DNA of 59,432 nucleotides. Origin: a virus. Numbering within the stretch: the stretch's first letter is position 1; every line of letters begins with the position of its first letter. The translations under genes and the position numbers were made by a program. Shown here piece by piece: positions 7,510-52,620 of this stretch. Below the pieces are notes generated by a model. It saw only the letters and a program-made list of their open reading frames with translations. It was not told the DNA's origin and made no database searches. The stretch spans positions 1 through 59,432 of IMG/VR virus record IMGVR_UViG_3300014838_001974. One strand, given 5' to 3'.

Positions 7510-7838
7510 TGCACGGACACCCGCGCCACGCCGGCACCGACAAAGCCGAGCTCGCGCGCGATGCCGTGGCTGACGTCGATCACGCGGCCGGTCCAGCTCG
7601 CCGGACCGAAATCATTGACGTAGCAGCGCGCGCTGCGCCCGGTCGCCAGCACGGTGACGGTGACCCAGCGCCAATGATGCGTCCGCATCGCACAGGTCGC
7701 GCCCTCGGGGTGAAAGCGCTGCCCGCTCGCGGTCTGGCGGCCGCTCTCGGCGCCGTACCAGGACGCCAGGCCGGATTCGGCCGACGCGGGGATGGCGAGC
7801 GCGCACAGCAACGCCGCCGCGCATGCGGTTTTCAACAT
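7506..7838 (-). CDS. RlpA-like double-psi beta-barrel cell-wall protein
   Basis: A 110-residue exported protein: signal peptide ending ASA, then the RlpA core GLASWYGAESGRQTASGQ, a cysteine pair, and VNDFGP, corresponding to the NDRGP motif with its catalytic-type Asp in RlpA lytic transglycosylases. The C-terminal part (RVIDVSHGIARELG) also fits the family. The start at 7838 was chosen for the signal peptide; upstream codons overlap the coiled-coil gene and do not look coding. RlpA proteins bind or cleave denuded peptidoglycan glycan strands; here it probably helps wall breakdown at lysis together with the GH25 muramidase. It lacks the SPOR domain of host RlpA. Confidence 0.8.
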   Translation of the reverse strand: MLKTACAAALLCALAIPASAESGLASWYGAESGRQTASGQRFHPEGATCAMRTHHWRWVTVTVLATGRSARCYVNDFGPASWTGRVIDVSHGIARELGFVGAGVARVSVQ

Positions 7839-7857
7839 GATGAATGCCTTTCGGTTT

Positions 7858-8208
7858 TCAGTAATGCGGCGGCGGCGTGCCGCCGCCCTTCGACAGCCAG
7901 GTCGCCAGCCAGGTGATGGCCCCGCCGGCGGCCGCCGACAGGAAATGCCCGATCGCGCCCAGCACGCGGCTCTGGCCCAGATGATCGCCGGTGCGGCGAT
8001 TCTCACGCCGCTCCATATCGGTGAGACGATCCCAGAGCCGGCGCTGGTCGTCGCTCAGGCGCTCGTTCTGCTTGCGCAGGTCATTGATCTGGTCGGTCTT
8101 GAGATCGTTGATCTCCTGGCGCAGCAGGTCCTCGATGCGCTTGAATCCGGATTTGATTTCGGACTCGAGCCGGGTGACGCGAGCGTCGACGGCGGCAGCG
8201 TCGGTCAT
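7858..8208 (-). CDS. Coiled-coil protein with C-terminal transmembrane segment (lysis accessory candidate)
   Basis: A 116-residue protein. Residues about 8-75 form a charged heptad-rich coiled coil (LESEIKSGFKRIEDLL...RRLWDRLTDMERREN), followed by one hydrophobic helix near residues 83-107 and a short GGGTPPPHY tail. This layout resembles XhlA-type lysis accessory proteins and some pinholin or spanin-like products. It lies between the holin-like gene and the RlpA-like gene. No sequence-specific family motif is visible, so the lysis role rests on topology and neighbourhood. Confidence 0.55.
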   Translation of the reverse strand: MTDAAAVDARVTRLESEIKSGFKRIEDLLRQEINDLKTDQINDLRKQNERLSDDQRRLWDRLTDMERRENRRTGDHLGQSRVLGAIGHFLSAAAGGAITWLATWLSKGGGTPPPHY

Positions 8209-8212
8209 TGGC

Positions 8213-9211
8213 TTAAAGGCCGACCGCCGAGGCGGCCGCGAGTCCTGCCGCGCCCGTCACGATTCCATTGACGGCCTGCAGCGCGGTGACCTTGAACATT
8301 TGCGCCGTGCCGGCGCAGGCCGTCAGCAGCACACCCTGCGGCGACAGATTGTCGATCAGCTCCGCTATATCCTCGATATCGGTGATCAGCGCGGGGTCGG
8401 GACGTACCAGCGGATTACCGCCGGCGTCCTTCAATCCGTCACCGCTGACCTGATCGGCCGCCGCCGAGATCGCGGTCAAGCACTGCAGCCGGACCTTGCT
8501 GCCGTTGGTGTTGGCGCCCTTTGCCTTGGCGATGGCATAGGTCAGATCGTCCTTGTTGATCTTGGCGATGCGCTTGGACACGCGCTGCACGTCTTCGGAT
8601 ATATTGCCGGTCAACAGTCCGCACAGCCCCAACGGGTCCCATGGCAGCGGGCACGCCTTGGTCGGAGCCGCCGGCGCGGCCGCGTGCGCCTTAGGCTGCG
8701 CGGATGCCGGTGCGGCCGCCATCATGCCGACCACGAACATCGCGAGCAGCACCGCCGCGACCTTGCCGACCTGCACGGTATTGCTCGGCACCGCCGTCGC
8801 CAGCGCCTGGCCGCTCCTGGTGTCGATCGTGGCGACGCCGGCGACCTCCGGCAGCTGATCGGTGATCGCCACCACATTGACCTTCTGGTCGAAGCTGGCG
8901 AGCTTCACCTGGTCGATCATCTTTGGGCTGCCGGCGATGGCGGCCGCCGAGCGGAAGAAGCTCGCGAACGGACCGGACTTGACCGCCGAGTAGGCGATCA
9001 TCGCCAGCGTCGCCAGCGAGGCGATCGAGCCGTAGAGATCCTTCAGGTCGGCGGCGATGTGGTCGACGTCCTGCGTCGCCTCCTTGACCTGGCTGGCGTC
9101 GAGCGCGCCGAAGAACGAGAGCGCCGCGATCGCCGAGCCCGCGCCGACCACCAGATGCGACGCGATCACGGCCGCCTGATGTTTGGTCGGCATCGTCACG
9201 TTGATATTCAT
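8213..9211 (-). CDS. Holin-like membrane protein with long periplasmic or cytoplasmic extension
   Basis: A 332-residue protein starting MNINVTMPTKH at 9211; the open frame extends further but the upstream part overlaps the lipoprotein gene. The N-terminal about 100 residues contain two hydrophobic helices (near 15-36 and 60-80) separated by an acidic helix, as in Pam3-gp28-type putative holins of alphaproteobacterial phages. A third hydrophobic segment near residue 160 ends in PASAQP, like an internal signal or anchor, and is followed by an Ala/Pro linker and a Cys-containing domain. It may be a fusion of a holin-like part with an exported domain. The neighbourhood (endolysin, lipoprotein, coiled-coil TM protein) supports a lysis role. 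Confidence 0.55.
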   Translation of the reverse strand: MNINVTMPTKHQAAVIASHLVVGAGSAIAALSFFGALDASQVKEATQDVDHIAADLKDLYGSIASLATLAMIAYSAVKSGPFASFFRSAAAIAGSPKMIDQVKLASFDQKVNVVAITDQLPEVAGVATIDTRSGQALATAVPSNTVQVGKVAAVLLAMFVVGMMAAAPASAQPKAHAAAPAAPTKACPLPWDPLGLCGLLTGNISEDVQRVSKRIAKINKDDLTYAIAKAKGANTNGSKVRLQCLTAISAAADQVSGDGLKDAGGNPLVRPDPALITDIEDIAELIDNLSPQGVLLTACAGTAQMFKVTALQAVNGIVTGAAGLAAASAVGL

Positions 9212-24449: not shown

Positions 24450-25009
24450 TCAGCCCATTCCCGGAATGCGGCCGCCCGTCAGGGCGAACATGCGCTTGAA
24501 TTCTTCGGCCGTCATGTATTTCTGCTGTTCGGGATCGTCTTTTGGAATCTCGAAGCCGATGAAGGCGGCCACGAGATCGCGCAGTGGCGGATATTTGCCC
24601 CAGTAGGTCAGCAGGCGATTGACATCGTCCAGCGTCATGTCGCGGATTTCGGAAGGCGTATATCCTCCGTCGGTCTGCAGCCTGCCGAACAGCTCGGTCC
24701 AGTAGGACTTGTCTAGCTTGCGTCCAGCCCCGGATTCCGATCCGGGGCCTGGAGGTTTTTTGAGTCAGGGAGATTATATCCCGAACCGCGCATGATCTTC
24801 TCGATGGCCTCGCGCAGGTGACCGGGCTCGGCCTCGATGTCCCGGATGTCCCCGATCGGAGGATTGGCCCGGCGCATCAGAATCGTCAATGCGAGGAAAG
24901 TCCATTTGGCGGCGGAGGCATCGAGCTCCGTCATATCCTCGATCTGCCCGATGTTCATCTTCGGAACATCGTACTCCTTGTCGCCCAGCGTAACCTTGAT
25001 CGAAGACAT
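24450..25009 (-). CDS. Tail assembly chaperone fusion (G-T type) made by -1 frameshift
   Basis: Joining the 98-residue chaperone to the next frame by a -1 shift at 24755-24761 gives a product of about 186 residues. After the shift the frame reads through Lys-Leu-Asp-Lys-Ser-Tyr-Trp-Thr-Glu-Leu-Phe-Gly and continues into a 62-codon stretch (MTLDDVNRLLTYW...GGRIPGMG) that would otherwise be an isolated small frame. Such G/GT pairs are nearly universal just upstream of tape measure genes in siphophages, where the longer form binds the tape measure and recruits tail tube protein. Frame arithmetic was checked by hand: codons at 24755 and 24638 are in phase. Confidence 0.8.
24713..25009 (-). CDS. 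Tail assembly chaperone, short form (G type)
   Basis: A 98-residue protein, unshifted product: MSSIKVTLGDKEYDVPKMNIGQIEDM is typical of small phage tail chaperones (GTA gp10-like). It lies between the major tail protein and the tape measure. Codons 83-85 (TCA AAA AAC) form the frameshift site, after which the normal frame runs only 13 more codons to a TAG. Confidence 0.8.
   Translation of the reverse strand: MSSIKVTLGDKEYDVPKMNIGQIEDMTELDASAAKWTFLALTILMRRANPPIGDIRDIEAEPGHLREAIEKIMRGSGYNLPDSKNLQAPDRNPGLDAS
24724..24761 (-). other. Programmed -1 ribosomal frameshift signal
   Basis: On the minus strand a perfect slippery heptamer A AAA AAC (24761 to 24755) sits in phase (TCA AAA AAC). Six bases downstream starts a 9-bp perfect hairpin GCCCCGGAT / ATCCGGGGC with tetraloop CGGA (24748 to 24727), extendable by CCA/TGG with one bulged G to 24724. 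Heptamer, spacer length and stem all match the canonical design. The shifted frame is open to 24450. Confidence 0.85.
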
Positions 25010-25057: not shown

Positions 25058-25825
25058 CTATGCGAGGTTCGGCCAGACCGCCTCGAACAGGTTGCCGGCG
25101 GGGTTGCAGTACATGCTGAAATCGATTTCCGGCATCGCGTAATCCTCCAGCTTGAACTGCAACCCGAAGCTGTCCGAGACGCATTGGAAGGCGCGAACCG
25201 CAAAGGGAGACGCGCTCGGCTGGACGACGTTGTTCCAGTAGTCGAGCTGAAACACCGGCGTGGTGCCGATCGGCTGGTTGGCAAACAGCATGTTTTGGCC
25301 GGTTCCGGAGACGGTCGAGGTATAGGTGATCAGAACGGCGACGCCTTCGTCCGCCGCGGCGAACGTATAAACACCGGCCGAGACCGAATATTGGCCCACG
25401 GTCGGCCCCGATGCCACCAGCACGAACGGCTGTCCCGTCGCGGCATAGGTGACGCCCAGATCCTGATCGAAGGTCGCGCTGTTGGTGACCGTGATGGTGT
25501 AGGTACTCACAGCCGGAATGTTGTGCGCTTCGTTGACATTCCACTGATAGCCGCCGGAATTCAACGTCTGGCCGAAGAATGCCGCGTTCATGGCCAGCGC
25601 CGACAACCGCGCCGCCTTGATCTTGCCCGACGCCTTGATGGTGCCGCGCGCCACCAGATCGGGCAGCTGGTTCTGGCCGTAGAGTTCCTTGCTCGACGCC
25701 TTCAGGTTGATCGAGAACTCCTGGGCCTTCCCGATGTTGATCGAGCCCTGGTTGGCGATATCGATGCGTCGCACGCACAGGATACCAGGACCAAACAAGG
25801 CAATAGGTTGCGCAGTGGCCGTCAT
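25058..25825 (-). CDS. Major tail tube protein
   Basis: A 255-residue beta-rich protein directly before the chaperone pair. The opening (GPGILCVRRIDIANQGSINIG, FSINLKASSKELYGQNQLPD) and the closing ALEDYAMPEIDF-like strand are typical of tail tube proteins of alphaproteobacterial siphophages. A middle Ig-like segment (STYTITVTNSATFDQDLG...GQYSVSAGVYTFA) fits an inserted surface domain. No signal peptide. Confidence 0.75.
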   Translation of the reverse strand: MTATAQPIALFGPGILCVRRIDIANQGSINIGKAQEFSINLKASSKELYGQNQLPDLVARGTIKASGKIKAARLSALAMNAAFFGQTLNSGGYQWNVNEAHNIPAVSTYTITVTNSATFDQDLGVTYAATGQPFVLVASGPTVGQYSVSAGVYTFAAADEGVAVLITYTSTVSGTGQNMLFANQPIGTTPVFQLDYWNNVVQPSASPFAVRAFQCVSDSFGLQFKLEDYAMPEIDFSMYCNPAGNLFEAVWPNLA

Positions 25826-38028: not shown

Positions 38029-38049
38029 CGGACGCCTTCGGGAAAGATC

Positions 38050-38077
38050 GGCTCGCCTGCATTGCCGCAGGCGAGCC
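38050..38077 (-). terminator. Stem-loop C in the nusG-like / late operon spacer
   Basis: GGCTCGCCTGC (38050-38060) and GCAGGCGAGCC (38067-38077), 11 bp perfect, hexaloop. On the minus strand it is followed by GATCTTTCC, a weak U-tract, and ends 21 bases before the HNH start. It could be a terminator or cover the ribosome-binding site. Confidence 0.5.
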
Positions 38078-38153
38078 AGTCTGGGGAGGAAACGCCCAAG
38101 ATGGGCAGCGGCTATTCAAAACGTTTGCCGCACACCCTACGCCAAACGAAAAC

Positions 38154-38301: not shown

Positions 38302-38979
38302 CTAGATCTTTTCGATGTCGGAAAGAGAAAGCACAACCCGTGTCGATCGTCCGAACAGATCGACCAGTAGATGAACGCGAACTGAGTCGTCAAGATCTTC
38401 CAGCGCTGCGTTTACCATTTGCTGGGAATTGAGCACCGGCAATTCCTCGATCGTGCCGGGAAACGAGGCAAACGGCCCGTTGGCGACGCGAACGCGCTCG
38501 CCTAGGATGTAGGGCATTTCGAACAGCCTGGTGACCGCTGGCACCGCGCCGGCGACCTCGAGGCCCTGAATTTCGGCAATCATCTTCCACGGCACTTCGA
38601 CCGGCAGGTTGTTGGCACAGACCAGCCCGCGAATGTGGGTCATCTTGAAGATCTCGCGCCAGCGCTCGCCGGCTTGCGAATAGTCGATGAAGGCATAGCC
38701 GGGAAAAAACGGTTCGATCTTTTCCCGCATCGGTTTGATCGGCGACTTGCGCTGCGCCTTCGAAAGCGTATTGCGCGGCACCGGCTTCAGGCTCCTGATC
38801 AGCGGCCGGTACAACTCGATCTGCAGCCGGCGCAGAAAATCGACGCCCGCGCCGTCAAGACCATCGCTGATCTGCACAAGATGCCAGATTTTCGCGGCTG
38901 GCGACGTCGAGGCACTTTTGGCTGTTTCGACATAACCGACCACCTGGCCTTTTTGGTAACTCTGGTCCCGCACGTTCAT
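38302..38979 (-). CDS. NusG-family processive antiterminator, phage type
   Basis: A 225-residue NusG paralogue; ATG at 38979 with GGAG 7 bases upstream. The N-terminal NGN domain ends with EPFFPGYAFIDY (89-100), the RNA polymerase-binding signature; the KOW linker is GERVRVANGPFASFPGTIEE (160-179), and the end VRVHLLVDLFGRSTRVVLSLSDIEKI is the standard NusG C-terminal strand pattern. It is a specialised NusG (RfaH/LoaP-like role) between the early and late operons and probably lets RNA polymerase pass the stem-loops downstream. The regulatory link is inferred from position. Confidence 0.85.
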   Translation of the reverse strand: MNVRDQSYQKGQVVGYVETAKSASTSPAAKIWHLVQISDGLDGAGVDFLRRLQIELYRPLIRSLKPVPRNTLSKAQRKSPIKPMREKIEPFFPGYAFIDYSQAGERWREIFKMTHIRGLVCANNLPVEVPWKMIAEIQGLEVAGAVPAVTRLFEMPYILGERVRVANGPFASFPGTIEELPVLNSQQMVNAALEDLDDSVRVHLLVDLFGRSTRVVLSLSDIEKI

Positions 38980-39323
38980 GATCAATCTCCAACATCTCGA
39001 TTTCCCCTCGATTTGCTGGCCTTCCGGCAACTGCCGGTCTCACTCACTTCGAAACGGTTCCTGCCGAGAACCGTTTTTGGTTGTTCCAGATCAGAACAAC
39101 CAAACTTGGGAGGGTTTGGGAGGGTCACTGACAATCATTTTAGAAACCCTCCCGGTTAGAAACCCTTGGTACACAGGCCGTTCTAAGATCATTTTATCAA
39201 AATGGGTGGATCGGGTGGATTATTGCAGTTCATGTTCCGTGTGCGCCTGCGCCCGCGCGCATGTACATAGAGAAAAATCCACCCAATCCGCCCAACCCTC
39301 CCGAACGCAATCAATTCAACGGC
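38980..39323. promoter_or_regulatory. 344-base spacer upstream of the nusG-like gene, rich in inverted G/C-run repeats
   Basis: No convincing gene. Visible: an 8-bp inverted repeat GGTTGTTC/GAACAACC (39079-39086 and 39094-39101); a stem AAACGGTTC/GAACCGTTT ending in T5 near 39052-39077; GGGAGGGTTT (39108) facing AAACCCTCCC (39144); GGGTGGAT repeats (39205-39221) facing AATCCACCC (39277-39285); and ATCCGCCCAACCCTCCC (39286-39302), which is a 16/17 inverted copy of 39351-39367 inside the next gene. It could hold the late promoter, an antitermination recognition site, or a replication origin. Confidence 0.5.
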
Positions 39324-39776
39324 TTATTTTCCAGTTTCCCTCCCGATTTTGGGAGGGTCGGGCGGATCGATCGGAGGTGGAAGCGTGCGATCCAACTTTT
39401 GCCGTGCACATTGCTGGTTGAAAACAATGGCCGGATCGACGTCCGGGTCATCGTCGCTGCAAAAATGAGAAGTCATTTCGAGGATGATGATGTCGCGCAC
39501 CCGCGTCGCATAGTGAAACCATTCTCCGTGCGAGTGGTGCTGCTCTATGCGCTTGTGAATGGCTCTTTCCCTCCGCTCGTTGCCGTCCAGCTCTGCTATC
39601 AGCTCCAGCCGCGTAGGCGAGCCGACCTGAAGGGTCGCCAGGCGTTTCTGCGGCCGGAGCGCCACCCCGCATTTTACCAGGCCAGTGGTCTTGCAGAGGA
39701 TGAAATAGACTTTGACGCGAAGCTCTCGCCCGTCGGGCTTGAGCACTTGAACGCGTCGTTTTTCAGAACTCGACAT
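39324..39776 (-). CDS. GIY-YIG / T5orf172-like nuclease-family protein
   Basis: A 150-residue protein with VYFILCKTTGLVKCGVA (GIY and YIG strands), RLATLQVGSP, and a late ERAIHKRI with the expected Glu region, followed by HGEWFHYA. It resembles T5orf172/MUG113-type GIY-YIG domains, which have lost or altered catalysis in many cases. The ATG at 39776 has AAGGA 9 bases upstream, better than the ATG at 39785. The C-terminus LPPPIDPPDPPKIG is encoded by the G-run repeat of the adjacent spacer. Confidence 0.65.
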   Translation of the reverse strand: MSSSEKRRVQVLKPDGRELRVKVYFILCKTTGLVKCGVALRPQKRLATLQVGSPTRLELIAELDGNERRERAIHKRIEQHHSHGEWFHYATRVRDIIILEMTSHFCSDDDPDVDPAIVFNQQCARQKLDRTLPPPIDPPDPPKIGRETGK

Positions 39777-45418: not shown

Positions 45419-47278
45419 TCACCGGCGGCTTGGACCTGGATGGCGTTTCGCGGCCGATTGCGCCGGCGTTGGCACTTTCATCAATTTGTCGGCCGCATCG
45501 ATCGCCGCCCGCGCTGCGCTGGGCTTGTAATGCTCCGAGCCGGGCCCGGCGTAATGCACAGTGCGCAATTCCTTCGGCAACCAGCCGGTCGGGCCGAGGT
45601 TGGCGAGCGCGAACTTCCAGATCTCGGCCTTGGTCTTACCGGCGACCTTGCGGGCTTCGTCCGGGTTGATTGCTTCCGCGATCGCCTTCAGCACGATGCC
45701 CTTCGGCACCGAGGAAAAATAATTCTCGGCATCGAAGCGTTTGGCCAGCGCCGTGTTGAACACGCCGGCATTGAGCGCCTGCCGGATGCTCGGCAGTTTG
45801 GTTCGCACCGCGTCGGGCATGTGAAACGGCCGATCGGGAATGATCTGCGCGCAAATGGTCCTGGCCAGCGTCTCGAACAGTACGGAACGGGCGAGCTCGG
45901 GCTCGCCCGCGATCGCATCGCGGGTTGCCGCCGCCAGCTGCGCCTCCAAACGGTCCCTCAGCGCGTTGGAAAGCGTGGTCGACTCGGGTGCCGGCTTGCC
46001 GGAAGCCGCGGCGGCTTTCTTGACCGCCTTCGCGGTCTCGCGCTTCACCGCTTTCGTTTCCTCCACAGCGGCCTGTTTCTGCGCCGGCTTGACGCGGCCA
46101 TATTCGACATCAAGAAATCCGTCGCCGTCGATGCTGACGAAGCAGCCGGCCTTCGCCATCAACTTCGGTGGATAGCTGCGCAGTTCGATCGCCTCAACGA
46201 GATCCCAATAAGCCAGATAGGCCGCCTGTTGCGCGGTCGTCAGTTCGGCGAACGAATCAGCACCATAATGGCCGTCGCCCCGATGGGTACCGACGTTGAA
46301 GACGGCGTTGAGTTCGGCCAGCTTCCGTTGCTCTTCCTCCGTGGCGGGCGGTTCGACCTTCAATCTGCCGTAGTCGTACTGATTGCGGACGCTGTCGTGA
46401 ATTGAAGCAAAGCTCCAGCCCTGCTCTTTCAGGCGTTTGCACTCGGCCTCCAGCCGTTCGATAGCCAGCTTCTTGGCAAGCTTGGCATCGGATACCTTGT
46501 GATCGGTCCCGAACAGATCAAGCGTCACCTTGCCACCGGCATTGACATAAACCTCGATCCCGACGAATTCGACCAGCGTACCGGAATTGTCCTGGCCGAT
46601 CTTGAGGGCTTCCTTGACTTCGTCACCGTCGACGTCGATCAGATCGCAGCCGCGGCCCGTCTCGGCGTCATTCCGGAGATCGTCGAGCACCTTGTCCTGG
46701 GTCTTGTGGTCCGGCGCCAGGGTGAAGGCCTTGGCGGCTTCCGTCTTGATCTCGCCCTTGCGCCAGGCATCGCGTATATTCGCCGACAGATGCCCGAGCG
46801 CCAGCGCCTGCTCGACTTCGCGCTCGCTCATGCCATACTGCCGCGCGATCTCTTCCACCGTCTTGTCGTGGCGATCGCGCAGCCGTGCGAACGCCTCATA
46901 CTGGTCGACCGGATGCAACTGCCGCGCGGTGACCGCCGTGGTCAGCGAATCCTCAAACGCGCCGGCCTCGTCGACGTCGCGCAGCGTGCAGCGGATCGGC
47001 TGCGGACTGCTCTCGCCGTAGATCAGATGGAAGGCGGCCAGGCGCCGGTTGCCGTTGCTCACCGAATAGACGTCGCAAGTACCTGTCCAGTCCTCCGGCA
47101 GCGGCAATCCATTGTCCTCGCCGAAATACTTGATCACGAGGTTTTCGATCTGGCCGCGGGCGTGAAGATTCGCCGCCAGTTCGGGGATGCTTTCCTGCCG
47201 GCCGGTGACGCGGGCGTTGATGCCGGCGCCGTCTTCCTGGCCAAACTTCAGTCGATTGAGCGGAACTTCAAAATCCAT
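45419..47278 (-). CDS. ParB/RepB-family protein with HTH (C-terminus shifted in frame)
   Basis: A 619-residue ParB-like protein. Residues 20-110 form the ParB N-terminal fold (IPELAANLHARGQIENL, YSVSNGNRRLAAFHL); 120-175 the KTVEEIARQYGMSEREVEQAL helix-turn-helix; the centre is Lys/Ala-rich (AVKRETAKAVKKAAAA). The annotated frame stops at 45419, but the -1 frame continues to a TGA at 45357-45359 as SRSKPPVKQAAAIEKPAKK..., a typical ParB/histone-like tail. This suggests a 1-base change near the 3' end. It may regulate replication or transcription rather than partition. Confidence 0.7.
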   Translation of the reverse strand: MDFEVPLNRLKFGQEDGAGINARVTGRQESIPELAANLHARGQIENLVIKYFGEDNGLPLPEDWTGTCDVYSVSNGNRRLAAFHLIYGESSPQPIRCTLRDVDEAGAFEDSLTTAVTARQLHPVDQYEAFARLRDRHDKTVEEIARQYGMSEREVEQALALGHLSANIRDAWRKGEIKTEAAKAFTLAPDHKTQDKVLDDLRNDAETGRGCDLIDVDGDEVKEALKIGQDNSGTLVEFVGIEVYVNAGGKVTLDLFGTDHKVSDAKLAKKLAIERLEAECKRLKEQGWSFASIHDSVRNQYDYGRLKVEPPATEEEQRKLAELNAVFNVGTHRGDGHYGADSFAELTTAQQAAYLAYWDLVEAIELRSYPPKLMAKAGCFVSIDGDGFLDVEYGRVKPAQKQAAVEETKAVKRETAKAVKKAAAASGKPAPESTTLSNALRDRLEAQLAAATRDAIAGEPELARSVLFETLARTICAQIIPDRPFHMPDAVRTKLPSIRQALNAGVFNTALAKRFDAENYFSSVPKGIVLKAIAEAINPDEARKVAGKTKAEIWKFALANLGPTGWLPKELRTVHYAGPGSEHYKPSAARAAIDAADKLMKVPTPAQSAAKRHPGPSRR

Positions 47279-47308
47279 TGTGGGTCTCCATCGTTGAAAA
47301 AAGCAAGG

Positions 47309-47522
47309 GCCGTCGCTGTCGCGCCGGCTAGTCAAGCTGCAGGTGGTCACTGCGGCCGCGCGCCCCGATGTTCTCGCTCGAGTTGTCGGGCCAGATGCCG
47401 AGGTTCGCGAAGCGCGAGCCCGCGCCCTCGCCGCTCCACCACGAACCACCGAAGATGGACGCGCGCGGCGTGTCGGGATCGCCGTCATGGCCCCATACCC
47501 AGAGATTGCCGGTGGCCTGCAT
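47309..47522 (-). repeat. DGR variable-region block VR1 with 3' conserved segment
   Basis: A 214-base block, 92 percent identical to 52981-53194. The 15 substitutions between 47370 and 47456 all have A in one copy on the coding strand. The 65 coding bases before and the 22 bases after the stop codon are identical, the latter fitting an initiation-of-mutagenic-homing segment. Confidence 0.85.
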
Positions 47523-48236
47523 CGCGCCGTCCTGGCTGGTGCGCGCGGCATCGAGGCCGGTTATCCGCGGATCGCCAGCGCGAGAGGTTTTTTCGGTGAC
47601 GCCGAAGGCAAAGGCCCGGAATTCGTCCGAGCTCATCGGCTGCTTGCCGTGATGCGCCAGCACGGCGACGGCGGTCGGATAATCCAGCTTCCGGTACTTC
47701 TTGCCGGTTGCGGGATTGACCGGCGGCGCGTCGCCGTCCGCGATCGTCGCGCCGAATTGGCTGGTGCCATTGATGTGGTGGTCGACGCCAAGCAGGTAGA
47801 TGTCGCCCCAGAATTTAAGGCCGAATCGTTCGCACAGCGCCATGCCGCGCGGATCCGCCGCGGGGCGATACTCCAGATCCCACAACGATCGGGGATTGAT
47901 CGCCGGAATTTCGTCGCCGCCGACGCGCGCCGGTGCATTGCTGCCCGGCGCAAAATGGAAACCGGCAAAATAGATGTCGTGGGCCAGAACCGGACCGAGC
48001 AGTTTAACGGCTTGAGGCGCGCGGTCGAAAGTGCACATTACGCCGTAGTCGCAACCGGTTTCGAGGCCGACGTCGGGCATGATGATGGCGGTATCGGCGC
48101 CGAAGGACACGCCGTCGAAGATCGTGCCGGCCTTGACGGCCGCAGTTTTGGGACCGGTTAGCTTGATCGCGGGCGAATGCGGATCCAGCTTGGTCAGCAA
48201 TTTTGGCGAGATATCGGTTGTGGCATGCTTGTTCAT
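47328..48236 (-). CDS. Mtd-like variable protein 1 (C-type lectin fold, DGR target)
   Basis: A 302-residue homologue of the major tropism determinant Mtd of Bordetella phage BPP-1. Shared phrases include KAGTI, GFHFAPGSNA, DPRGMAL, FWGDIYLLGV, NGTSQFG...TIADG, then TGNLWVWG and the variable C-terminus IFGGSW...GSR...IGARGRSDHLQ. Variable residues are 261, 268, 270, 271, 276, 278, 281, 284, 285, 288 and 289. Compared with Mtd it lacks the N-terminal beta-prism. ATG 48236 has GGAG 8 bases upstream; a second ATG at 48242 is too close to it. It sits in the early operon beside a ParB gene, not with the tail genes. Confidence 0.9.
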   Translation of the reverse strand: MNKHATTDISPKLLTKLDPHSPAIKLTGPKTAAVKAGTIFDGVSFGADTAIIMPDVGLETGCDYGVMCTFDRAPQAVKLLGPVLAHDIYFAGFHFAPGSNAPARVGGDEIPAINPRSLWDLEYRPAADPRGMALCERFGLKFWGDIYLLGVDHHINGTSQFGATIADGDAPPVNPATGKKYRKLDYPTAVAVLAHHGKQPMSSDEFRAFAFGVTEKTSRAGDPRITGLDAARTSQDGAMQATGNLWVWGHDGDPDTPRASIFGGSWWSGEGAGSRFANLGIWPDNSSENIGARGRSDHLQLD

Positions 48237-49858: not shown

Positions 49859-50106
49859 GATTTCAGCCGCCCTGTTATTGCCCCGGCCAGTTCGCGCCTT
49901 CCGGAGGCCGTGATGCGCGCGATGCGTTTCAGGCCCGTGCCGACGATCGTGCAATGGCGGCGCACCTCGAGCGACAAGATGGTCGCGCTGCTCCAGTACT
50001 GGCCTGGTCTGAGATCGCTGCAGAAGCCGGCGACGCTGTAGCCGAGCGCCTTCTTCGACATCCAATGCAGCGCGTCATGCTGGTGCGGGGAAAGTCGTTT
50101 CGTCAT
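49855..50106 (-). CDS. Small winged-helix-like early protein
   Basis: An 83-residue protein (MTKRLSPHQHDAL...). The TASGRRELAGAI ending and a preceding RHCTIVGTGLKRIAR strand are typical of small winged-helix regulators in phage early operons. Overlaps both neighbours. Confidence 0.5.
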   Translation of the reverse strand: MTKRLSPHQHDALHWMSKKALGYSVAGFCSDLRPGQYWSSATILSLEVRRHCTIVGTGLKRIARITASGRRELAGAITGRLKS

Positions 50107-51221
50107 GCCACAGCTCCCGTCCATTCCAGCTCGTCACCCCATGACGTCCATCCCGCGCGCGGCCGCCGCGCCTGCAGCTCGATGTAGGGCCCCTCGCCGA
50201 GCCGCTCGGCGCGCGCCAGCCATTCATCCGGCTTGCGGGAGTGCTCCATGACAGGCGCGATGATCAGCTGTCGCACGTCGGCGTGCAGGCGTTTCGGATT
50301 GCCCTTGGTGGCAAGCCAGCAGTCTTCCGGATTGGCGCGGGTCCAGAACCCCTGCCCCATATGCCAGGTCGAGGGGCTCCAGATGTCGAGCGCGGCGCCG
50401 TTTTTCCCCGCGATGCCATTGGTCTTGATCCAGGTCCAGGCGGTGGTGATGTGCCTGAATCCGTAATGGGCGATCAGGTCGAGCGCGTCCTGCGGGCACC
50501 AGTCCACCATCCACATGCAGAGGATCGAATCCTCATGTGCGAGCTCGCCGACCGGCAGCGCCTTGATCCTGTCGACCTCTTCGGTCTTGTAATGGACGTT
50601 GGCCGATCGGCCGTCGCCGGCGGCCGAGCGGGTCAGGAATTTCCACTGCGGATCGGAGCCGATCAGTTTGGCGCGATATCCGGACAGCGCCAGGCGTCCG
50701 AGATCCTCGACGCAGCCGCCGCTCCTGGTGCGCGCGGCGTGGTCGGCACGGCGCCTGTCGAGATCGGCGGCTTTTTCGGCTTCGCGCACCGGATTGACCG
50801 GGATGGCTTTTCCGGACGCCGCTCTCGCCAACGTGCTGGCGACCACGGCTTCGAATTCGTCGTCATCGAGCGCCGCCGAGGCTTTTGCGCGCATCGACAG
50901 CTTGCGATCGACGCCGATTTCGTCGAGCGTCGCCGGCGTCGGCGCGTCGCCATGTTCTTTCGCGAACTTCTCGCGGTTGACCGTTTTGGAAAGCAGCTGC
51001 CCGGCTTCCGTCGCCCGCTGCAACAACACCCCGAGCCAGCGCTCGATCCGCATCTGGTATTCGAGCGCCTTGTGCAGCAGCTCTTGGTCGCGCACCCGCT
51101 TCGCATGCAGCTTGACATGGTCGAGCTCGTCCCGACCCTTCAGCACCACGTCGATCTGGGTCGACTCCAGTGCCACGGTCAGGGCCGTCATCGCGCGATC
51201 GTAATGGGCGAGCACGGTCAT
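50103..51221 (-). CDS. MT-A70-family N6-adenine methyltransferase
   Basis: A 372-residue protein. The N-terminal half is helical and resembles phage MT-A70 partners; the methyltransferase core starts at LIGSDPQWKF. The catalytic motif is DPQW (190-193), not the usual DPPW. ILCMWMVDW, HITTAWTWIKTN, WHMGQGFWTRANPED and HSRKPDEW complete the family. Probably modifies phage DNA against restriction; the DPQW change may lower activity. ATG 51221 overlaps the previous stop. Confidence 0.8.
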   Translation of the reverse strand: MTVLAHYDRAMTALTVALESTQIDVVLKGRDELDHVKLHAKRVRDQELLHKALEYQMRIERWLGVLLQRATEAGQLLSKTVNREKFAKEHGDAPTPATLDEIGVDRKLSMRAKASAALDDDEFEAVVASTLARAASGKAIPVNPVREAEKAADLDRRRADHAARTRSGGCVEDLGRLALSGYRAKLIGSDPQWKFLTRSAAGDGRSANVHYKTEEVDRIKALPVGELAHEDSILCMWMVDWCPQDALDLIAHYGFRHITTAWTWIKTNGIAGKNGAALDIWSPSTWHMGQGFWTRANPEDCWLATKGNPKRLHADVRQLIIAPVMEHSRKPDEWLARAERLGEGPYIELQARRPRAGWTSWGDELEWTGAVA

Positions 51222-51436
51222 GCGATATTCTCGATCCGTCGCCGCTCGCGGCTGACCTGCAGCGCCGCCCAGGCCGCGCTTTCGGGCACCACCAGCCTGA
51301 TGGATATTTCCTTGGTGTCGAAACCGGCGGCGAACATGTCGCCGGCGATGATGATCAAGGCCTCGTCGCACCGCGCCTCGCTGATGCTCATGCGCGCGGC
51401 ACGCTTCGGAGGTCCGAATGTGCTGTCCGGTCTCAC
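51218..51436 (-). CDS. Small HTH-like early protein
   Basis: A 72-residue protein with GTG 51436 overlapping the ParB-like stop (GTGA). The AGFDTKEISIRLVVPESAAWAAL segment looks like a helix-turn-helix of a sigma-like or small regulator. Confidence 0.5.
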   Translation of the reverse strand: MRPDSTFGPPKRAARMSISEARCDEALIIIAGDMFAAGFDTKEISIRLVVPESAAWAALQVSRERRRIENIA

Positions 51437-52620
51437 GGTGCGATCTCCACGATCTGCCGTCCGATGCCCTTGAGGCTTCGGACCTCGAGTCCGATCTTCT
51501 TGAGCGATGCGAGCTCGTGCACCAGTCCGTCGAGATACTCGCCTGCATTCGACGGCCGCGCGTTCCAGAGCTTTGCGATCAGGAAGTCATCGCCGATCGG
51601 ATTCGGTTTTGCCTTGGAAAGCAGCCCGACCAGCAGCGCGGCGCGGGGCGTCACGCGGACCTGCCGTCCATTGAAGGTGACCACGTCGCGGCCGATGGAG
51701 AAGATGCCGGGGCCGGCTGCTGGCGCGGAGGCCGCCGGCGGCTGCCTGGTCGAAGCCGTCTTTAACGGGGCCGCGGGTCTCTCCTCTGGCGGCAGCGGCG
51801 CCTGCGATAAATGCGCGGCAACGAGACCGCCCAGGATCGCTGCCACCTTTGCTCCGGTATCGATCGACCTGGCGCGCGCGGCGTTGAACTGCGCGCTGAA
51901 GTCGAAACTCTGCATCTGGAAAAGCAACAGCTTTCGATCGGCGCGGGTTTGGCGCGCGTCTTTCAGCGCCAGGCACAGTCCCTCCACGATCGCGGCCCGG
52001 ATCATGCCGACATTGCCCTTGCGGGTCATGGTGATGCAGGCAAGTGCCGCGATCAGCACGTCACGGCCGAATCTTTCGAGCGCGCCCTGCAGCATCGCAA
52101 CCGCGAGCGTCTCGCCCGGCTTCATCTTGTTGGCCGGTACCGGATAGCGGCAGATCGTCACCCCGGCCTCGAGGCAGACCTCGGTCAGGGCGACGGCCGT
52201 CTTGTTGCCGGCAGCCAGGCGCGCGGCGTGAAGCTGCAGCGGCGACATCGCGGTGACGTTGGCGTTGATCGCAACGAACGCGTCGGCCTGCTCGGCATCG
52301 TCGGCCGCGATGATCACGCACGGCACGGACTCGAAGCCGCGGAGCGCGGCCGCGGTGGCGCGGTGCTGGCCGTCGACGATCGCGAACAGGCCCTCGCCGA
52401 TCGGCGCGACGATCAAAGGGCCGAACTTGGCCCAGCGGAACGCCGGCGCGATCGCCAGGATGTTATCAGCGCCGCGGCGGCCGATGTCCCGCTGGTATCG
52501 CGGATCGATGCGAAGCCGCGATATCTTGAGCCATTGCAATTCGGGCCGCTCGCCGGGCTCTGAGGCCGCTCCGGCATAGCGCGGCCTAAGCGGAGCCGGA
52601 TCGATGGCGCGCAGGGTCAT
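51433..52620 (-). CDS. ParB/sulfiredoxin-fold protein with C-terminal HTH
   Basis: A 395-residue protein. FAIVDGQHRATAAAL is the DGQHR-type ParB/Srx nucleotide-binding motif; AFVAINANVTAMSPLQ follows. After a Pro/Ala linker (residues 270-300) the C-terminal 90 residues form a winged-helix domain (RAALLVGLLSKAKPN...SLKKIGLEVRSLKG). Similar proteins act in DNA maintenance or gene regulation in temperate phages. Confidence 0.7.
   Translation of the reverse strand: MTLRAIDPAPLRPRYAGAASEPGERPELQWLKISRLRIDPRYQRDIGRRGADNILAIAPAFRWAKFGPLIVAPIGEGLFAIVDGQHRATAAALRGFESVPCVIIAADDAEQADAFVAINANVTAMSPLQLHAARLAAGNKTAVALTEVCLEAGVTICRYPVPANKMKPGETLAVAMLQGALERFGRDVLIAALACITMTRKGNVGMIRAAIVEGLCLALKDARQTRADRKLLLFQMQSFDFSAQFNAARARSIDTGAKVAAILGGLVAAHLSQAPLPPEERPAAPLKTASTRQPPAASAPAAGPGIFSIGRDVVTFNGRQVRVTPRAALLVGLLSKAKPNPIGDDFLIAKLWNARPSNAGEYLDGLVHELASLKKIGLEVRSLKGIGRQIVEIAP

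Follow-up and report, generated by a model that had tools for sequence, protein, structure and literature searches.

The question raised by this locus is whether two overlapping reading frames, located between a major tail protein gene and a tape measure gene, represent two genes or a single gene whose second half is reached by a ribosomal frameshift. The locus lies in an IMG/VR virus record of 59,432 bases (the window, meaning the whole stretch of DNA that was analysed), which encodes terminase, portal, protease, HK97-type capsid, tail, and tape measure proteins on the minus strand. The major tail protein gene is followed by G, by T in the -1 frame, and by the tape measure gene (Table 1), and, in agreement with the location given in the first-pass annotation, the stop codon of the proposed GT fusion is found 3 bases before the start of the tape measure gene. 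Judging from its sequence, the locus almost certainly encodes a programmed -1 ribosomal frameshift of the type known from lambda G/GT. This reading is supported by the gene order, by the conservation of the -1 relation between G and T, by the conserved part of T that precedes the first ATG, GTG, or TTG of its frame, and, more tentatively, by the predicted fold of G.

Table 1. Coordinates of the features of the G/T locus and of the adjacent genes in the window.
Feature	Coordinates	Strand	Basis or remarks
Putative major tail protein	25058..25825	-	Adjoins G upstream; phrog_8234 (function unknown), E = 2e-46; weak match to phrog_88 major tail protein, E = 0.016
G frame, putative tail assembly chaperone, 98 aa, zero-frame product	24713..25009	-	ORF; PHROG matches of relatives; predicted fold
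Slippery heptamer A AAA AAC	24755..24761	-	In phase with G; read tcA AAA AAC
Spacer CTCCAG, 6 nt	24749..24754	-	
Hairpin GCCCCGGAT-CGGA-ATCCGGGGC	24727..24748	-	22 nt; perfect 9-bp stem, loop CGGA
T domain, -1 frame, 101 codons + TGA	24450..24755	-	Entered by shift (proposed); T profile match; conservation
Nominal 62-aa ORF within T frame	24450..24638	-	ATG-started; ATG is an internal Met in the proposed reading
Predicted GT fusion via -1 shift, 186 aa, 20.8 kDa	24450..25009	-	
Tape measure protein, 737 aa	22233..24446	-	Begins 3 bases past GT stop; phrog_2854 tail length tape measure protein, E = 2e-28

All of the sequence elements noted in the first-pass annotation are present where it placed them: an A AAA AAC heptamer, which is in phase inside the overlap of the two frames and close to the end of the 98-codon G frame; a 6-base spacer; and a predicted hairpin with a perfect 9-bp stem. 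Its span of 24724–24761 contains the site but extends trivially too far at the lower end, where the 9-bp hairpin stops 3 bases earlier, at 24727. The -1 frame contains stops at 24776–24774 and 24767–24765 and is thereafter open until the TGA at 24452–24450, giving the same count of 101 codons after the heptamer as was first reported, and the mass computed for the fusion (Table 1) is consistent with the product of about 20 kDa that had been proposed. All 9 pairs of the stem are Watson-Crick, with a calculated energy of -17.1 kcal/mol, and the folding energy of the 86-nt stretch at the site has a z of -2.69. The hairpin has the attributes of a stimulator as given in the available text of PMC4066793, namely a start 4–10 nt downstream, a G-C closing pair, and a stability of at least 7.6 kcal/mol. 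In the minimum-energy fold the stem extends via a bulged G into UCCA/UGGA, reaching about 13 bp and beginning 1 nt past the heptamer; the 9-bp part, 6 nt away, is what a ribosome positioned on the heptamer would still meet. No Rfam family was matched at the frameshift site, and the G GGG GAA ('fivetwo') signal is absent from the G/T overlap of the window, though most relatives have it.

The combination of in-phase heptamer, spacer, and 9-bp hairpin is far above chance. In 60 dinucleotide shuffles, an X XXY YYZ heptamer followed at 4–9 nt by a perfect stem of at least 9 bp is expected about 0.05 times per strand. The minus strand of the window has two such sites, at 24761 (the site described here) and at 39120/39117, the latter consisting of two overlapping heptamers sharing one hairpin; the plus strand has one, at 38040, within an Rfam suhB match. 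When G was redrawn with synonymous codons (20,000 trials), 2.1% of the trials placed an A/T-type heptamer within its last 22 codons, and 0.005% produced a heptamer together with a 9-bp stem. In the window, TCA accounts for 4.4% of Ser codons and AAA for 16% of Lys codons.

A simpler description of the locus would treat the 62-aa ORF as an independent gene that has its own start, the overlap and the heptamer being incidental. This ORF does have an ATG of its own and ends just ahead of the tape measure gene, and in the deposited phages Strzyga, Polewnik, and 5W, the G and T frames of these relatives are annotated as two hypothetical proteins. However, past the shift the -1 frame runs for 39 codons before it reaches its first ATG, GTG, or TTG, which is the ATG at 24638, and the conservation of T at the protein level extends well upstream of this codon. 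In this upstream part, 15/33 aligned residues are identical to those of the related locus L002, 9 of them via synonymous codons, while 18/34 are identical to those of L107, 10 of them via synonymous codons. Identity of residues encoded by differing codons is a trace of selection on the protein, and such conservation disfavours a gene beginning at this ATG. No Shine-Dalgarno-like sequence was seen directly before the ATG when the sequence was read by eye, and the -1 overlap is kept throughout nearly all of the family (see below), which also argues against a separate gene. We thus regard an independent 62-aa protein as very improbable. T in the -1 frame encodes a conserved protein domain, and the earlier suggestion that the frameshift turns the otherwise orphan 62-codon frame into part of this domain is supported.

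Neither G nor T of the window, when used as a query, retrieved relatives among viral contigs, and a DNA search in phages gave nothing beyond short chance matches. The family was therefore collected through the neighbouring major tail protein. The sample consists of 125 loci (L002 to L126) and the window, giving 126 sequences, with L001, the window's own stretch, left out. A T-domain profile search placed T in 117/126 sequences; the match to the window itself has E = 4e-32 in a profile that includes the window. Of the 9/126 sequences without a T match, six end before or shortly past the major tail protein (L007, L036, L037, L043, L062, and L124), and the remaining three are L059, L065, and L109. 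The T profile also located T in four named phages; T of L003, searched against the phage collection by tblastn, gave nothing.

After the removal of identical copies, which reduced the 117 sequences to 100, G and T are found in a -1 relation in 98/100, window included, in a +1 relation in none, and as a one-frame fusion in two. The 98 comprise 92 identified by an overlap filter and 6 by their reading frames (L006, L028, L061, L067, L072, and L093), the eight rows that failed the filter having been inspected by eye. The two exceptions are related loci, L076 (4732-5299) and L079 (4607-5300), in which G and T form a single uninterrupted frame; here no shift would be required for the long product, and there is no sign of a short G. 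In L061 (~7665-8180) and L093 (~7842-8402), the G/T pair does not directly follow the major tail protein but is located about 3 kb further downstream. Conservation in relatives, which the first-pass annotation had proposed as a check, is therefore found for the -1 relation but does not extend to the exact heptamer or hairpin. The nearest relatives carry heptamers that differ from that of the window (C CCA AAC in L002, A AAC CCT in L107 and L008, and G GGG GAR in L098 and L105), and the sequence of its hairpin is likewise not kept in them.

Across the family, the overlap of G and T contains one of two kinds of in-phase site: G GGG GAR is present in 82/98 loci (77 identified by the filter and five by reading frames) and X XXY YYZ in 13/98, window included, so that 95/98 have either; no recognised slippery site was found in the remaining 3/98 (L006, L017, and L110). 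As a control, the 21,516 major tail protein codons from these loci contain no G GGG GAR and 31 X XXY YYZ. These signals also bear on the idea that a fusion mRNA arises by transcriptional slippage on the A6 run instead of by ribosomal slippage. Six consecutive A's do exist at the site, and the same junction could result, but six A's are short for slippage by RNA polymerase, and most relatives use G GGG GAR or mixed heptamers (C CCA AAC and A AAC CCT are examples), none of which is a homopolymer that long. A transcriptional origin of the fusion is accordingly scarcely credible.

The distribution of the two kinds of site was compared to a tree of 96 rows, which came from a quick search on a proxy, the major tail protein, and does not settle the order of branches within the window's clade. 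The window falls in a group of 16 rows (SH-aLRT 98), of which 9 have X XXY YYZ, 5 have G GGG GAR, and 2 have other sequences, whereas just 2 of the 80 rows outside it have X XXY YYZ. The heptamers of this group include A AAA AAC, C CCA AAC, C CCA AAA, G GGA AAA, and A AAC CCT. On these data we lean slightly towards a history in which the shift is constant in the phrog_7947/phrog_8018 family while the signal turns over, the near-universal G GGG GAR having been mostly replaced in the window's lineage by unlike X XXY YYZ heptamers and the shift having been lost by in-frame fusion in the L076/L079 lineage. The comparison shows one homologous family retaining the -1 relation while its slippery sequence changes, and, if this hypothesis is correct, the replacement would let shift efficiency be compared with signal type in one homologous system.

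To survey hairpins across the family, we defined a strong hairpin as one of at least 0.452 kcal/mol/nt starting 4–10 nt downstream, with imperfect stems allowed. Such hairpins are found in 5/13 X XXY YYZ loci and 25/77 G GGG GAR loci, compared to 6.7% of 2250 background positions; the enrichment is suggestive, its p values being a guide only as the loci are related. The hairpin of the window is the strongest among the 13 X XXY YYZ loci, at 0.78 kcal/mol/nt. Perfect stems of at least 6 bp occur in 5/13 X XXY YYZ and 4/77 G GGG GAR loci (background 3.55% of 20,696), and a percentile measure gave no difference between the two site classes. The notion that hairpins are exclusive to X XXY YYZ sites was dropped, along with any contrast between the classes, because both are enriched once imperfect stems count.

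It is also possible that the heptamer does most of the work and that the hairpin is incidental or has some other use, such as protection of the mRNA. By the definition above, 8/13 X XXY YYZ and 52/77 G GGG GAR loci lack a strong hairpin, as this would predict, but the excess of strong hairpins over background in both classes, together with the very stable stem at the right distance in the window, makes a dispensable hairpin unlikely, although this possibility deserves more weight than the two alternatives discussed above. In lambda-type G/GT frameshifts, a stimulatory RNA structure downstream of the heptamer is common but not universal. We retain a probable stimulating role for the hairpin as part of the proposed programmed frameshift.

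Assignment of G and T to the tail assembly chaperones draws on relatives and on predicted structures. G and T of the window match no Pfam family and no PHROG under E = 0.1, but 30/56 G sequences of relatives match phrog_7947 and 27/64 T sequences match phrog_8018, both of which are listed as function unknown. Single family members weakly match the tail chaperone families phrog_183, phrog_1442, Phage_TAC_12, and Phage_TAC_7. The model of G (pLDDT 84) has a beta-beta-alpha3 fold, and VIA-align gives weak matches (Z below 8) to YqbN (3klu; Z 5.6, 78 residues, 3.4 A) and to the HK97 tail assembly chaperone (2ob9; Z 4.5, 74 residues, 3.3 A); its top match is an uncharacterised protein (3fgx, Z 6.2). 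Several tail assembly chaperones are among its weak matches in BFVD, the best with E = 0.01. The modelled G thus folds somewhat like the HK97 tail chaperone. The model of T (pLDDT 87) is all-helical, with no match at Z of at least 2 among the 9 PDB chains compared and weak matches only in BFVD.

Based on the lambda model, most ribosomes would translate G to its stop, producing a putative chaperone of 98 residues. On a smaller share of ribosomes, delayed by the hairpin that starts 6 nt past the heptamer, both tRNAs would slip from A AAA AAC to AAA AAA; these ribosomes would read 101 further codons, resulting in a GT protein of 186 residues that includes a T domain otherwise left untranslated. 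By analogy with lambda, G would coat the tape measure, and GT would bring the major tail protein to it.

The programmed -1 frameshift of phage lambda gpG/gpGT is reportedly described in Xu et al. 2004. As in lambda, the order is major tail protein, G, GT, and tape measure, and a -1 shift near the end of G would give a short and an extended chaperone, the long form being predicted in the window; unlike lambda, whose heptamer is GGGAAAG, the window has A AAA AAC, and its G and T match no lambda G or T sequence family. The lambda shift is the prototype of a widely conserved system, according to the available text of PMC5009743. AAAAAAC is known from reports on the phiCbK group of Caulobacter phages and on Acinetobacter phage Loki, where it lies in the chaperone gene that precedes the tape measure gene, and the available text of these reports describes no hairpin (PMC3556154, PMC5313236), whereas one is predicted in the window. 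The window shares with these phages the heptamer and the position of the gene. In the available text of the PRFect paper, about a thousand GGGGGAA 'fivetwo' chaperone sites are given for SEA-PHAGES (PMC10885494). GGGGGAA is the motif of most of the 82 G GGG GAR relatives, from which the window differs in using X XXY YYZ. The G GGG GAR motif has been noted before in actinobacteriophages.

The heptamers given as most efficient in E. coli are C CCA AAG, G GGA AAG, and A AAA AAG, with less shifting at mixed-base codons such as AAC (available text of PMC4066793); a weaker shift at AAC would suit a low share of GT. The label 'textbook' given to the site thus applies to its architecture but not to its signal, as A AAA AAC is outside these top three and the wider family keeps G GGG GAR. 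Since the lambda shift, A AAA AAC, and GGGGGAA have all been published, the window site is most likely a new but unremarkable case of the lambda-type G/GT frameshift used by many tailed phages. In PHROG, phrog_7947 and phrog_8018 are listed apart, without a frameshift link, and a small literature search found no published frameshift for this chaperone family. We name the two frames that precede the tape measure gene as a single putative frameshifted chaperone gene, offering a likely function for both PHROG families; beyond this naming and the change of signal, the locus is an ordinary feature of a tailed phage.

Several other loci in the window were noted. A phage-encoded NusG/RfaH-type protein (38305-39027, minus strand) matches Pfam NusG with E = 4e-5 and phrog_6386 transcription antiterminator with E = 3e-12. 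Adjoining this gene downstream is the Rfam suhB (MmgR) small-RNA match (38036-38113, minus strand), whose borderline score of 43.1 bits against a cut-off of 41 may be caused by a terminator-like hairpin. On the upstream side of the NusG-like gene, three 12-nt repeats (39105-39126 and 39348-39359) share the core GGGAGGGT, and these repeats adjoin a strong hairpin with CCCAAAC/AAACCCT. The minus strand also encodes a ParB HTH-domain protein (45422-47551, E = 2e-9) and an MT-A70 family methyltransferase domain (50106-51548, E = 5e-20).
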